Below are positions 20,382 through 33,928 of a stretch of 33,928 nt of DNA, piece after piece (positions within the stretch are counted from its first letter, which is position 1; every line of letters begins with the position of its first letter). This DNA is from a virus. Made by a program: the position numbers and the translations under genes. Location of the stretch: the IMG/VR virus record IMGVR_UViG_3300028384_000371, positions 1 to 33,928 of that record; one strand, given 5' to 3'. The notes beneath the pieces were generated by a model. That model worked only from the letters and a program-made list of their open reading frames with translations, was not told the origin of the DNA and did not search any database.

Positions 20382-22667
20382 ATGGCAGATAATACTTTAA
20401 GAATAGCGATTAACGCCGATATAAAAGGCTTAAATCAAAATTTAAACAAAGCACAAACTCGTTTAAAGGCTTTTAGCGGGCGTTTAAAAAATATAGGGGG
20501 TCAACTACAAACTAGACTTGCGCTGCCTTTAATCGCAGCGGGAGGGGCTTCTATTAAGATGGCAGCTGACTTTGATAAGTCAATGACCAAAATAAAAACC
20601 TTAGTAGGTGTTGCGGGCGCTGAAGTAGACCAGATGTCTATGGGCGTAAAAGCTATGGCTACCGCCGCAGGTGTTAGTTCTGGCGAGGCTGCCGATGCAC
20701 TATTCTTTATTACTTCTGCTGGTTTACGCGGTTCGGATGCAATGGCTGTACTAGAACAATCTACAAAGGCAGCTGCATTAGGTTTAGGGGAAACAGCAAC
20801 AGTAGCCGACTTAGCTACTTCTGCCCTTAATGCTTATGGCGTTGAAAACCTTTCGGCAACCGATGCAACGGATGTACTTACAGGCGCGGTTCGTGAAGGT
20901 AAACTTGAGGCTAGTGAATTATCTAGTGTAATGGGTCAAGTTCTTCCAGTAGCTTCTAATATGGGAGTACAGTTCCATGAAGTGGGTGCGGCATTTGCTG
21001 CAATGAGTAGAACAGGTACGCCAGCTGCACAGGCTGCAACTCAGCTAAACAGTATTTTGATGGCTATAATGAAGCCAACAAAACAAAGCGCTGCGGCAAT
21101 GGCTGAACTAGGTTTGAGTAGCGCAGGTTTAAGGCAGCAAATAAAAGACGAAGGTTTACTATCAGTTTTTCAAAGTTTAAAGACTGCAAGTGAAGGCAAC
21201 GCTGAGGCTTTTGAAATGGTGTTTGGAAACATTAGAGCTTTGAAAGGTATAATGGACTTGACTGGTGCTAGTGCAGCCACTACTGCCGAGATATTTGCTA
21301 GAATGGCAAATACTACTGGCATAACTTCACAGGCTTTTGACGAACTGCAAAAAAGTTCAGAATTTAGGTTGCGTAAAGGTTTAAAGGCTTTGCAAAATAG
21401 TTTTACAGATTTAGGCGCTGAATTAATGTCTAGCTTATTACCAGTATTTCAAAATATATTAGGAACAGTCACAAAACTATTTAAAGCTTTTGGAAGGTTG
21501 TCGCCTCAAACAAAGCAAATAGCGATAGGTTTTGCAGCGCTTGCAGTTGTATTACCTACTGTTTTATCAGTTGGTGGTGCGGTGTTAGGTGTTATATCAG
21601 CTATGATTTCCCCTATTGGTTTAGTCGCTGTGGCTGTTGCAGGTTTAGTACTTTATTTTGATGATATTGCAAACGCTTTTGTAATGTTTAAAAATGCAGT
21701 AAAATATAATGTATTAGCTGTATTGATTAGAATAAATGAATTTTTTGAAAAGTATTTGTTTAGACCTTTGCGTACAGCATCCAAACTATTTAATCAGTTT
21801 TTAGAAGATGGATTTGGAGCAGATTTTGGAGGAATTATTGATGATTTCTTTAAAGAAGGTGATGATATATCTAAAAAAGCGGGAAAAAAACTAGCAGAAA
21901 ACTACGTTAAAGAATGGGAGCAAAACAGCAAAGAAAGGTTTGATGGAAGTTTAAGAAAACTTGGAAGTTATTTAAAAAGTAAATCTTCTGATATGTTAGG
22001 AGATATTGGAATAGCAGCGCCAAGTGGCGTTTCAACACCAAAAGGTCCAGCGAAATCTCCATTTGACGCGGCTAGAATGCCAGCTGTTTCTGCTGCCGTA
22101 TTAACTACAAGCGAATCATTTGGTAAATTAAATGAGCAAATAAAAAACAGTCAAACCTTTGGGGAAAAATTAGGTGCATTTTTTATGCAGTTTGAGCCTC
22201 AAGTTAACTATTTAGCACAAGCTGTCGGAGGCACACTTATGAGTGCATTTCAATCTTTAGGTCAAGGCGGCAATTTCTTTGATACTTTAATACAGGGTTT
22301 AAAAAGGTTAATAATACAATTAGCCGCTGCCGCTGCTGCTGCTTTTGTTTTAACTCTGTTATTGCCAAGTGTTGGCTTAGGCGGTCTTACAAAAGGTTTG
22401 GGCGGCTTCAAAGAGGTTTTTGCTGGCTTGTCTGGACTTCCAAAATTCGCAAACGGAGGTATTGTATCTGGTCCGACTTTAGGACTTATGGGAGAATACA
22501 GTGGGGCTAGAAGTAACCCAGAGGTAATAGCGCCACTTGACAAATTAAAAGGAATGATAGGGCAACAAGCACAAACAGTTAACGTAGGCGGCAAATTTAG
22601 ATTAGAGGGTCAAGATTTAGTTGTAGCTTTACAGCGAGCAGATAAAAACAGAAGCAGACTTTTATAA
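20382..22667 (+). CDS. Tail tape measure protein
   Basis: 761 residues. The N-terminal part (NADIKGLNQNLNKAQTRLKA), the TP901-like core (ADFDKSMTKIKTLVGVAGAE, EAADALFFITSAGLRGSDAM, VLTGAVREGKLEASELSSVM, FAAMSRTGTPAAQAATQLNS) and a hydrophobic region at about 385-430 (AIGFAALAVVLPTVLSVGGA) define it. A second hydrophobic stretch lies near 645-670, before the Gly-rich end (FANGGIVSGPTLGLMGEYSG). From length I expect a tail of roughly 110 nm. It is the largest gene, as usual in siphophages, and follows the G-T chaperones. Confidence 0.95.
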   Translation: MADNTLRIAINADIKGLNQNLNKAQTRLKAFSGRLKNIGGQLQTRLALPLIAAGGASIKMAADFDKSMTKIKTLVGVAGAEVDQMSMGVKAMATAAGVSSGEAADALFFITSAGLRGSDAMAVLEQSTKAAALGLGETATVADLATSALNAYGVENLSATDATDVLTGAVREGKLEASELSSVMGQVLPVASNMGVQFHEVGAAFAAMSRTGTPAAQAATQLNSILMAIMKPTKQSAAAMAELGLSSAGLRQQIKDEGLLSVFQSLKTASEGNAEAFEMVFGNIRALKGIMDLTGASAATTAEIFARMANTTGITSQAFDELQKSSEFRLRKGLKALQNSFTDLGAELMSSLLPVFQNILGTVTKLFKAFGRLSPQTKQIAIGFAALAVVLPTVLSVGGAVLGVISAMISPIGLVAVAVAGLVLYFDDIANAFVMFKNAVKYNVLAVLIRINEFFEKYLFRPLRTASKLFNQFLEDGFGADFGGIIDDFFKEGDDISKKAGKKLAENYVKEWEQNSKERFDGSLRKLGSYLKSKSSDMLGDIGIAAPSGVSTPKGPAKSPFDAARMPAVSAAVLTTSESFGKLNEQIKNSQTFGEKLGAFFMQFEPQVNYLAQAVGGTLMSAFQSLGQGGNFFDTLIQGLKRLIIQLAAAAAAAFVLTLLLPSVGLGGLTKGLGGFKEVFAGLSGLPKFANGGIVSGPTLGLMGEYSGARSNPEVIAPLDKLKGMIGQQAQTVNVGGKFRLEGQDLVVALQRADKNRSRLL

Positions 22668-24799
22668 TGGCATACGGACTTAAATACGAATTGTTTTTCT
22701 CTGATGTAGAAAGGAACAAATTTAAGATTGAAATTTTAGAAAAAGATTTTGAGATTGACCCTTTTGGTTTAGGGACAACGCCAACACAGCTAATAGGTAC
22801 AGGAAGCCCAGCTGTAATTGAATGGAATGCAGACGATGATATTTACTCACCTATAATTGGTTCACGCTGTAAGCTTAATTTTTTTGCAACAGATTCAGAA
22901 ACTTATGATGAGTTTTATAAAGCAGGCGAAAGGCAATACAAAGTAAAAATACTTGAATACACTTCTTTTGGTAGTGATTGGGATGGCGAAGAATTGATTT
23001 GGAACATAATTGACCAAACTTGGGATAAAAGTTTACTTGGAAGTGAGGTCTTTTATAATCCAATTTGGGAGGGTTTTATAGTGAATGATGGATATCAAGA
23101 AGCTGTGATTACAGCGCCTTATGAAATTAATTTAGAGGCGATAGATGGGCTTGGAACTTTAGATTCTTTTGATGTCCCATACCCTAGCGACAATGCAAAC
23201 GCTAAAGAAGAAATGTTCTTTTATTTAAAAGAGATATTAAAACTAACTGGACACGAGTTTGATATTTATATAGCTAATGATATTCGTAAAGATGGCGGGG
23301 CTGCTAATGACACTGTGTTTCACGATATAGAAGTTGATAGGTATATTTTTTCAAATAAAAACCTTACACTAATGAACGCTAAAGAGTCGCTGCGTTACAT
23401 TATGAAAATGACAAATAGTAGGGTTTTTCAATCATTTGCAAAATGGTACGTTGTAAGCAACTCTAATTTAATTGACAATAGGGTTGACCAAAGTGCTGTT
23501 GCGCCTAGTATAGCTGATATAGTAAATGAGCCAGACGAGCCAGTTGCGACCCCAGTTTATGGTTCGCCAGACATTACGATAATAGGGCAAGACCCTATGT
23601 ATAATGATGGCACTACTTATTCACTTATAGTGCAAAATTCTGGAACTGATATTGTTTCTTATTTATGGACTTTGCCCGATAGCAGTACGCTTGCACAACC
23701 ATCATTGTATTTAGGGAGCGTCAATTTAAGTCAAGATGGCGATGTTTATTCAGTCACAGCAACTGATGCTAATGGACAAACAGACACAGCTACATTTACT
23801 TTGAATGTAGATGAACAAACAGTAACCCCTACAAATAGCCAAGCTGGTATTGTAGAAGAAGATGACGAAGAAGCGGATGACCCAGTTCCAGTTGAAACAC
23901 CTACTGTTTACTATAAAATTGAACTTACTGGTGTTGACGATGTTACAAATGCTTATTTATCGCCAGTTACGGGAACTTATAATTATACAGCTTCGGAAGT
24001 TGGTAATTCATTTTCAATGACATTTAATGTTGTTTCAACTTCTGGGGAGTTTGATAGTGTTTCGCAAATTAGTAGCATATCAGTAACTGGAGGCTTTACA
24101 ATTACAAAGCAACTTATTGCTGATTATATTAGGTTAACTGTCTCTGGAACGTTACCAGTTGGAGGTCATATTGGTAATTATTCAGTAAGTGGGGCAGCTA
24201 ATGTACAGCAATTTGTGCATAGCTATTCAGTTTCAAATTCTGGTTTATCAAACGCTACTGTTTCGCCTGGCTCTTTTTCGGCTACTGCTGGACAAGGCAA
24301 ATCTTACACAAAATCATTTAGCATTAATGCATCAAGTGGTTATAAGTGGCAAAGCGCTGGTAATGTAACTGTCATATCAAGCGATGCCATTTATGATACT
24401 TTAACAGTATCTAAAACTAATGACACAACGTTGACAGTAACTATATCTGGAACAATAGGTGTAACGGATGAAAGTGCTACAATAACAGTAAGCGGTGCGC
24501 CAGTAGGTTCTGGTCCAGCTACGACTTTAAGTTTTAGCCCTTCTTCTCCATACGATATATCTGAAAGTAATGGTTACTTTGATTTAAGAGTTACAGCAGA
24601 TGGAAACTTTACAGTAAGGCCAAACCGAACTTGGATAACTGTAAACCCAGAAAAAGGAGCAACAGGCACTACTACAATAAGAGTTAAATTTAATGCAAAT
24701 ACAGGCGCAAAAAATAGGAAAGGAATTTTAGAATTTTTTCCATCTGGCAGCAACACGCGAATAACTTCAATATTAATAAATCAAGATGGCGTAGCATAA
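22667..24799 (+). CDS. Baseplate/distal tail protein with PKD-like and BACON-like domains
   Basis: 710 residues. Residues 1 to about 290 are a baseplate hub-like domain (LKYELFFSDVERNKFKIEIL, VIEWNADDDIYSPIIGSRCK) of the type found after the tape measure in Bacteroidetes phages. Then come a PKD/Ig-like domain (about 300-385; IVSYLWTLPDSS, YSVTATDANGQTDTATFTLN), an acidic linker (EEDDEEADD), a repeated beta region (YSVSNSGLSNATVSPGSFSA) and a C-terminal BACON-like domain (about 620-710; TWITVNPEKGATGTTTIRV, ending ITSILINQDG). BACON domains are Bacteroidetes-associated and thought to bind carbohydrate or mucin. The overlap with neighbours indicates coupled translation. Confidence 0.82.
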   Translation: MAYGLKYELFFSDVERNKFKIEILEKDFEIDPFGLGTTPTQLIGTGSPAVIEWNADDDIYSPIIGSRCKLNFFATDSETYDEFYKAGERQYKVKILEYTSFGSDWDGEELIWNIIDQTWDKSLLGSEVFYNPIWEGFIVNDGYQEAVITAPYEINLEAIDGLGTLDSFDVPYPSDNANAKEEMFFYLKEILKLTGHEFDIYIANDIRKDGGAANDTVFHDIEVDRYIFSNKNLTLMNAKESLRYIMKMTNSRVFQSFAKWYVVSNSNLIDNRVDQSAVAPSIADIVNEPDEPVATPVYGSPDITIIGQDPMYNDGTTYSLIVQNSGTDIVSYLWTLPDSSTLAQPSLYLGSVNLSQDGDVYSVTATDANGQTDTATFTLNVDEQTVTPTNSQAGIVEEDDEEADDPVPVETPTVYYKIELTGVDDVTNAYLSPVTGTYNYTASEVGNSFSMTFNVVSTSGEFDSVSQISSISVTGGFTITKQLIADYIRLTVSGTLPVGGHIGNYSVSGAANVQQFVHSYSVSNSGLSNATVSPGSFSATAGQGKSYTKSFSINASSGYKWQSAGNVTVISSDAIYDTLTVSKTNDTTLTVTISGTIGVTDESATITVSGAPVGSGPATTLSFSPSSPYDISESNGYFDLRVTADGNFTVRPNRTWITVNPEKGATGTTTIRVKFNANTGAKNRKGILEFFPSGSNTRITSILINQDGVA

Positions 24800-32602: not shown

Positions 32603-32753
32603 ATTTTTCCCGATTTATGGAGTTATAGCTGGCGTGAATTACAGCAATGAAGATATTGAAAACATTGAAGTTGTCGCTGATGACAAGCGCCATACAATAC
32701 AGCTGTTCTTTTTTATTTTTGGGATAAACATACATTTTTTCACGAGCAAATGA
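32589..32753 (+). CDS. Unknown 54-residue protein
   Basis: ATG 32589 to TGA 32751, overlapping the previous gene by 14 bases and the ParB-like gene as ATGA. Mostly beta-type hydrophobic sequence (VEFFPIYGVIAGVNYSNEDI, TIQLFFFIFGINIHFF). Small size and overlaps suggest a real coupled gene. Function unknown. Confidence 0.6.
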   Translation: MLQVEFFPIYGVIAGVNYSNEDIENIEVVADDKRHTIQLFFFIFGINIHFFTSK

Positions 32754-33328
32754 TAAAGAAAGTAAACATAGCGGCTATAAAGCCAAACGAAGAAAACCCG
32801 CGTTTTATTACAGATGCGAAATTTAAAAAACTTGTAAAATCAATTAAAGAATTCCCAGAAATGCTTGAAACTCGACCTTTGGTGGTTGATGAGGATATGG
32901 TAGTTTTAGGCGGAAATATGCGCTTGAAAGCTTTAAAATCGGCGGGGGTGTTTGAAGTTCCTGTTCATCAAGTTAAAGGTTGGAATGAAAAACAAAAGCA
33001 GGAGTTCATAATAAAAGATAACGTTGGATTTGGTCAATGGGATTGGGATATTTTAGCAAACGAATGGCATGGAGAATCTTTAAAGGATTGGGGTATTGAT
33101 TTGCCAGAGTTTGAGGTAGAGCCAGATTATTCAATATTAGATGATTTCGATTTATCTGAGCAGCTTGATGAAATGCAGTCTGGAGTTAAAAAAGCAATTC
33201 AAATACCTTTTGAAAATGAACATTATGATGAAGCTTTTGAGTTGGTTAAATATTTTAGAGAACAAGGTCATTATGTCGGAATGATACTCATTGATAAATT
33301 AAAACAGCTTAAAGATGAAATTAAATAA
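32750..33328 (+). CDS. ParB/Srx-fold protein
   Basis: 192 residues. The N-terminal ParB-like domain (VNIAAIKPNEENPRFITD, TRPLVVDEDMVVLGGNMRLK with G54-G-N-M-R58, HQVKGWNEKQKQEFIIKDN) is followed by an acidic linker and a C-terminal domain (AIQIPFENEHYDEAFELVKY, FREQGHYVGMILIDKL). In phages and genomic islands this fold is often fused to or next to DNA methyltransferases; here no methylase domain is attached, but an FkbM-type methyltransferase gene overlaps its end by 14 bases. It may guide a DNA modification system or act as a nuclease or segregation factor. Confidence 0.85.
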   Translation: MIKKVNIAAIKPNEENPRFITDAKFKKLVKSIKEFPEMLETRPLVVDEDMVVLGGNMRLKALKSAGVFEVPVHQVKGWNEKQKQEFIIKDNVGFGQWDWDILANEWHGESLKDWGIDLPEFEVEPDYSILDDFDLSEQLDEMQSGVKKAIQIPFENEHYDEAFELVKYFREQGHYVGMILIDKLKQLKDEIK

Positions 33329-33928
33329 ATCCGAAATAAAAGGAATTAATTTTTATTACAGAGAAGATTACTCAGACCTAAAAACTTTTAATGAAGTAAT
33401 TGATAGAGATGTTTATCAAAAAAAAGATTTTAAAATCGAATCAGGCGAAAAATGGATGGATTGTGGGGGTAATGTTGGCGCTTTCGCTTTGCTAGCTTTG
33501 AGTAAAGGTGCTATTGTAGATATTTTTGAGCCAGACCCTTTTAATTGTAAATTGATTGAAAAAAATTTGAAATTAAACAACTTTAATGCTAATATTTTTC
33601 AAAAGGCTCTTGTTCACGATGAAACTAAAAGTTGCTATTTATTTGTAGGTAATAATAATCAAGTTTGGAGAAACAGCATAGTCAAGAAATGGAACAATAA
33701 AGGAATAAAAGTAGATTGCTTAAATTTTGACGAAGTTCAGGGAGACTATGACTGTTGTAAAATGGATATAGAAGGCGCTGAAATGTTAATTTTAGAAACA
33801 TATGAAACTAATTTCAAAAAGTTAGTTTATGAGTGGAGTTTTGATATTGACAACAACATAGACAGGCTTAGAAAAGTTTTAGAAAAACAGAAAAAAAATT
33901 ATCCTAATATTTACGGAATAGACAAGGT
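33315..33928 (+). CDS. FkbM-family methyltransferase, truncated by the window edge
   Basis: At least 204 residues from the ATG at 33315, still open at the right edge. SAM-binding motifs are clear: WMDCGGNVGAFALLALSKG (49-58 core), VDIFEPDPFN (71-75) and CCKMDIEGAEMLIL (149-156, the FkbM acidic K-x-D-I-E-G motif). FkbM enzymes usually O-methylate hydroxyl groups of sugars or polyketides. Here it overlaps the ParB-like gene, and in a circular genome would lie next to the 2OG oxygenase. Methylating a hydroxylated base, or a sugar on it, is a speculative role. Confidence 0.85.
   Translation, partial: MKLNKSEIKGINFYYREDYSDLKTFNEVIDRDVYQKKDFKIESGEKWMDCGGNVGAFALLALSKGAIVDIFEPDPFNCKLIEKNLKLNNFNANIFQKALVHDETKSCYLFVGNNNQVWRNSIVKKWNNKGIKVDCLNFDEVQGDYDCCKMDIEGAEMLILETYETNFKKLVYEWSFDIDNNIDRLRKVLEKQKKNYPNIYGIDK

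Follow-up and report, generated by a model that had tools for sequence, protein, structure and literature searches.

What do a ParB-like protein, an FkbM-family methyltransferase and a TET/JBP oxygenase do together when their genes are brought side by side in a viral genome? The question is raised by the virus record IMGVR_UViG_3300028384_000371 (positions 1 to 33,928), whose 33,928 nt were analysed as a whole and are referred to here as the window. The original prediction had the first two genes overlapping at the right edge and the oxygenase just inside the left edge, and read them, if the genome were circular, as a cassette for O-methylated hydroxymethyl bases. Profile matches confirm the three genes at these places, all on the plus strand: a ParB/Srx-fold protein of 192 aa (32750..33328), belonging to a type whose members adjoin phage DNA methyltransferases or are fused to them; the first 204 codons of an FkbM-family SAM methyltransferase (33315..33928), interrupted by the contig end; and a TET/JBP Fe(II)/2-oxoglutarate dioxygenase of 261 aa (68..853). 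It is proposed that they form a post-replicative DNA hypermodification cassette in which ParB guides, TET/JBP makes 5-hydroxymethyluracil (5hmU) and FkbM O-methylates it to 5-(methoxymethyl)uracil, a reading to which we give slightly better than even credence.

The ends of the window split one FkbM gene. Its 5' part (33315-33928) runs off the right edge, and its last 23 codons lie at the left edge (plus strand, 1..71), where the frame at 3-71 reads SNEYDIWQKNWFPMAKNLYLKK up to its stop codon and matches the C-terminus of the uninterrupted FkbM in two related loci, L002 and L003. The FkbM proteins of L002 and L003 end in SSGEYQFWQKNWFPMAKNLYLKK before the stop and are 89% identical to that of the window; the oxygenase adjoining their intact FkbM gene downstream is 94% identical to the window TET/JBP. 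Spacing and reading frame, compared with these two loci, agree that about 5 nt are absent between the contig ends. Because the contig ends split a single gene, ParB, FkbM and TET/JBP are direct neighbours in the same orientation, and their adjacency across the genome junction no longer depends on an assumed circular genome. A partial gene does precede the oxygenase, as had been noticed; it is not a separate truncated gene but the FkbM C-terminus. The ParB and FkbM genes overlap by 14 nt, in keeping with the overlap first seen at the right edge, and the FkbM stop codon (69-71) overlaps the oxygenase start codon (68-70) as ATGA.

Downstream of the cassette come the genes for terminase, portal, protease and major head. 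The small (2081..2482) and large (2445..3623) terminase subunits, both on the plus strand, are conserved downstream neighbours outside the proposed chemistry; the large subunit is named from its sequence, position and conservation. A 91-aa gene directly 3' of the oxygenase (857-1132) was seen only in the window, L002, L003 and L082. Near-identical leaders (TATATTTGTARTGTAATTAAAAC) at 1270-1310 and 1560-1615 stand ahead of small genes at 1309 and 1612, and in them TAnnTTTG resembles a Bacteroidota promoter element; together with a BACON domain at 22667-24796, these leaders hint at a Bacteroidota host.

The oxygenase carries an intact catalytic apparatus. It matches Tet_JBP at 4.8e-12 (45.8 bits, cut-off 34.9), and H182, D184, H233 and R247, comprising the HxD...H metal triad and the 2-oxoglutarate-binding Arg, are invariant in 50 aligned sequences. 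The nearest solved fold to its structure model (pLDDT 95) is TET2 (E 3.5e-11); structure-model alignments were run without rows from annotated phage records. This family goes under misleading names in databases: it is misnamed 'queuine tRNA-ribosyltransferase' in PHROGs and RefSeq (PHROG 6059; NC_020847.1 CPAG_00035, a cyanophage oxygenase that matches Tet_JBP at 3.4e-06, below the cut-off), and the oxygenase of Pelagibacter phage HTVC112P (MN698246.1 gp18) is annotated 'DnaJ chaperone/SNF2', yet matches Tet_JBP at 1.1e-29.

The window FkbM protein belongs to its family both by profile, with a match to Methyltransf_21 (PF05050) at 1.3e-12 (48.6 bits, curated cut-off 22.7) besides PHROG 28597 at 5e-70, and by the KxDxEGxE motif, whose residues K149, D151, E153, G154 and E156 are invariant in 43 aligned FkbM sequences; the solved FkbM structure 2py6 matched at 8.9e-06. 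A model built on the L002 copy (pLDDT 92) resembles the RNA base methyltransferases Trm5, RlmK, RlmO and RumA (Z 13-14, all tied), its fold neighbours being many tied class I methyltransferases among which nucleic-acid methylases prevail, a likeness that is not specific for chemistry. Neither the adenine-N6 nor the pyrimidine-C5 methylases share their catalytic motifs with this protein, which has no DPPY-type or (D/N/S)PP(Y/F/W) motif; its motif region reads KMDIEGAE without a conserved Cys. A profile scan of 84,980 species genomes returned only generic bacterial FkbM of at most about 31% identity, none adjoining ParB, TET/JBP or TerL. A second FkbM-domain gene lies away from the cassette in the record of L057 (G008:C1:25169-25624). 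FkbM proteins of giant viruses have been called DNA methylases of unknown target, with no DNA methylation tied to them (PMC7253447).

The ParB-like protein scores under the model cut-off for Pfam ParB_N (2e-4, 21.8 bits, cut-off 26.3) and matches the PHROG families 'DNA methyltransferase' (5e-28) and 'ParB-like partition protein' (4e-27). With the profile of its family, ParB/Noc structures are retrieved at 7e-11, and it is assigned to the ParB/Srx fold by a ParB_N domain whose NPR and G-x-R motifs are conserved.

Related phages were searched for the same trio through viral contig scans with the oxygenase and FkbM as queries; with two annotated phages included, the set comprised 258 TET/JBP loci, sampled by similarity rank, so that the counts and percentages below are biased and no census. 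ParB is encoded in 243 of these loci, and the remaining 15 are cut by a contig edge just upstream. FkbM is present in 166; in almost all of these it directly meets the adjoining genes, and terminase lies downstream. Of the 130 loci measured for it, 106 show a 4-nt overlap of the ParB stop and the FkbM start; the FkbM stop lies -14 to +5 nt from the TET start in almost all of 135. An additional scan with the cyanophage oxygenase found FkbM in 68 of 80 viral loci. The order ParB-FkbM-TET/JBP recurs in the cultured Prochlorococcus phages MED4-184, MED4-117 and P-HS2 (57% identity to the window in FkbM, 54% in the oxygenase); Pelagibacter phage HTVC112P and its relatives have ParB-TET/JBP-FkbM, with FkbM last, so the trio is kept even where its genes are ordered differently. 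The adjacency, recurring in well over 100 other viral loci, goes far beyond chance, and the ParB-FkbM-TET/JBP cassette itself is well supported.

FkbM fills an exchangeable slot, in the sampled loci more often than any other occupant. In loci lacking FkbM, the slot between ParB and TET/JBP is empty or holds a TET-associated glycosyltransferase or related glycosyltransferases, P-loop kinases, or a kinase with a glutamine amidotransferase and ADDT. Matches reach 3.9e-19 and 5.3e-16 for TAGT (PF20691), which occupies the slot in L052, L063 and L381, and 1.1e-12 and 4e-9 for ADDT (PF18724), by its Pfam name an amino acid:DNA transferase, which acts on 5hmU in thymidine hypermodification. Mapped on a tree of 94 oxygenases, the slot content must have changed 25 times or more. 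Considering the presence of FkbM alone still requires 15 changes, of which well-supported branches force 9 or more; the closest kin of the window include loci both with and without FkbM. The simplest reading is one conserved ParB-oxygenase core whose tailoring enzymes have been swapped repeatedly. Further variants were noticed on the way. The kinase/ADDT cassettes encode a class II glutamine amidotransferase (GATase_6; L200:854-1450, L254:3833-4423, L217:3882-4514) and sometimes a GNAT-like acetyltransferase (weak match), which suggests amidated or acetylated amino-acid adducts. In 46 of the 258 loci (L004-L014, L025, L034-L036 and others) ParB and TET/JBP stand with no recognised tailoring gene nearby, so that either plain 5hmU is the end product or a tailoring enzyme is encoded elsewhere.

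That the three genes are mere neighbours in a late or packaging region, with FkbM modifying a protein or a surface sugar unrelated to DNA, appears highly improbable to us. Bacterial FkbM families commonly act on small molecules and glycans, and the cassette does adjoin terminase. Against this stand the gene overlaps, which are typical of coupled translation, the independently rearranged order in HTVC112P-type phages and the repeated exchange of the slot with DNA-tailoring enzymes. A consistent linkage of FkbM to glycan genes would also have spoken for such a role; no glycan genes were seen between ParB and terminase in FkbM loci, where the family is instead linked to ParB, TET/JBP and terminase. 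Adjacency, the trio in relatives and a slot shared with enzymes of hydroxymethyl bases all support the modification cassette that had been predicted.

A second possibility is that FkbM acts before the oxygenase, as a DNA base methyltransferase making the very methyl group that TET oxidises. ParB domains are often fused to or adjoin DNA methylases (PMC12783734), the methylase precedes the oxygenase in the gene order of most loci, and the fold neighbours include uracil-C5 and cytosine-C5 RNA methylases; the modelled fold, resembling RNA base methyltransferases, would be compatible with methylation of a ring atom as well and to that extent speaks against O-methylation. However, 92 of the 258 loci keep TET, and ParB wherever the contig reaches, without FkbM, and the slot is otherwise empty or occupied by hydroxymethyl-tailoring enzymes, with no recognised DNA methylase there in any locus examined. 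The persistence of the oxygenase core without FkbM and the lack of a DNA methylase in the slot argue against FkbM supplying the oxidised methyl. The sole invariant Cys of FkbM, C135, precedes the KxD-bearing strand and does not coincide with motif IV or VI of C5-methyltransferases, which, with the missing DPPY-type motif, also weighs against this role, and we regard it as distinctly unlikely.

If the oxygenase comes first, as we prefer, its substrate has to be named. TET/JBP enzymes act on 5-methylcytosine (5mC) or thymine. A C5-cytosine methyltransferase (PF00145) is absent from 21 of 26 related records, including the window, MED4-184 and HTVC112P, and present in the other five, many of the records being possibly incomplete; the window thus does not carry the full TET, C5-methyltransferase and glycosyltransferase set of cytosine hypermodification. 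A thymidylate synthase-family hydroxymethylase (PF00303), which a nucleotide-level route would call for, was found in none of the 26. The 5hmU DNA kinase of thymidine hypermodification acts on 5hmU in DNA (PMC6449724), and Rhodococcus phage Tonitrus, which combines ParB and TET with aGPT-PPlase and a kinase, is annotated for thymidine hypermodification (PMC11955845), a reading that extends to Gordonia phage CaiB (PMC9302106). Since most records lack a C5-methyltransferase, none has PF00303, the slot partners belong to 5hmU pathways and Tonitrus is read in this way, conversion of thymine to 5hmU in DNA is more likely than a reaction on cytosine. In the cytosine version TET would oxidise 5mC made by the host or the phage, and FkbM would O-methylate 5-hydroxymethylcytosine to 5-(methoxymethyl)cytosine. 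The nearest solved structures to the oxygenase model, TET2, NgTET1 and CcTet, are 5mC oxidases, some slot genes are TAGT, a family that works on derivatives of hydroxymethylcytosine in phages of the T-even type (PMC13390438), and five records do encode the C5-methyltransferase. Its absence from the others, the window and both reference phages among them, and the kinase/ADDT partners of the 5hmU pathway count against this version, which we judge unlikely.

Characterised members of the FkbM family O-methylate, and their relatives often methylate sugars. Given this chemistry, the position in the tailoring slot and the scarcity of further tailoring enzymes beside FkbM, our best guess is that FkbM O-methylates the hydroxymethyl group. 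A glycosyltransferase accompanies FkbM in 0 of 166 loci and a kinase or ADDT in a single one, L103. Whole-record searches agree: FkbM occurs in 19 of 31 records, TAGT scores above the cut-off in two, both without FkbM, and ADDT is found in four, one of them (L103) with FkbM; a sub-threshold TAGT-like match lies far from the cassette in the FkbM-bearing record G019. These counts bear on the idea that FkbM methylates a further group, either an attached sugar or amino acid, or the carboxylate of 5-carboxyuracil formed by repeated TET oxidation, which would then become a methyl ester. TET enzymes oxidise stepwise, the sugar methylation of FkbM relatives would suit such a substrate, and in L103 (6001-9506) FkbM is followed, ahead of TET/JBP, by an ADDT-like gene, by what may be an FAD oxidoreductase (weak Pfam match) and by a P-loop kinase, so that one phage may have two tailoring routes; this coexistence also counts against our main reading. 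L195 (1-2158), a further slot variant with TET/JBP followed by a Methyltransf_31 SAM methyltransferase and TAGT before terminase, points the same way. With FkbM and other tailoring genes kept so nearly apart, methylation of a further group seems very unlikely.

Returning to O-methylation of 5hmU, we picture the following sequence of events. ParB would bind or clamp phage DNA and recruit or orient the oxygenase; it is proposed as the DNA-guiding partner because it alone of the partners recurs in every version of the cassette. A role of ParB as the base kinase was also considered and dropped, P-loop kinases being found beside ParB and not in its place. The TET/JBP dioxygenase would then oxidise a base methyl in phage DNA, most likely converting thymine to 5hmU, and FkbM would use SAM to methylate the hydroxyl so formed, yielding 5-(methoxymethyl)uracil. 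The small cap would block tailoring of the kinase or glycosyltransferase type at that hydroxyl and probably shields the DNA from host nucleases in an anti-restriction role, perhaps around packaging, a timing suggested by the adjoining terminase.

If this is true, the methoxymethyl base would be a DNA letter unknown in nature and a simple shield for phage DNA. That 5-(methoxymethyl)uracil or its cytosine counterpart is a natural base, made by TET/JBP and FkbM with a ParB-fold guide and widespread in aquatic phages, seems to us evenly balanced between right and wrong. Aquatic viral contigs often carry the cassette, so that a function open to testing would be assigned to many uncultured viruses; cultured Prochlorococcus and Pelagibacter phages carry its genes, which makes a direct test possible. 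The exchangeable slot also offers a route to discovery, any gene between ParB and TET/JBP being a candidate tailoring enzyme.

Known phage TET/JBP clusters carry glycosyltransferases or amino-acid transferases; in the literature searched, no description of the FkbM, TET/JBP and ParB trio or of methoxymethyl phage DNA was found, although an earlier prediction may exist. From other FkbM methyltransferases (PF05050, 2py6), with which it shares the sequence family and the DxEGxE motif, the cassette clade differs in being found here only in viruses, in a very different genomic context and with DNA as its predicted substrate. The phage TET and TAGT (PF20691) systems likewise couple a TET oxygenase to an enzyme that tailors the hydroxyl it creates; those described by Burke et al. 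in 2021 reportedly convert 5mC to 5hmC with a C5-methyltransferase, whereas most genomes here lack that enzyme and have FkbM in place of the glycosyltransferase. The clusters of Tonitrus and of Gordonia phage CaiB (PMC11955845, PMC9302106) are constant in ParB and TET/JBP, placed before terminase with short overlaps as in the window, and their oxygenases fall in the same superfamily as that of the window (1e-17 for Tonitrus, 1e-13 for CaiB), but they have an amino-acid transferase and a kinase where the window-type cassette has FkbM. Thymidine hypermodification in phages M6, ViI and phiW-14, with its 5hmU DNA kinase, aGPT-PPlase/ADDT and lyases, so far as Lee et al. (2018, 2022) are relayed in PMC6449724 and PMC11955845, shares the hydroxymethyl pyrimidine in DNA as a handle, and loci related to the window carry its ADDT and kinase genes in the slot of FkbM; in those phages 5hmU arises at the nucleotide level, whereas here it is predicted to be formed in DNA by TET/JBP with FkbM tailoring. 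ADDT is absent from the window record and no kinase was found in the cassette, which is of the same kind of design as thymidine hypermodification and not a member of it. The proposed route also resembles that to base J of kinetoplastids, in which a JBP dioxygenase (JBP1/2) oxidises thymine in DNA and a glucosyltransferase caps the hydroxyl; the cap proposed here would be a methyl group instead of glucose, in a phage and linked to ParB.
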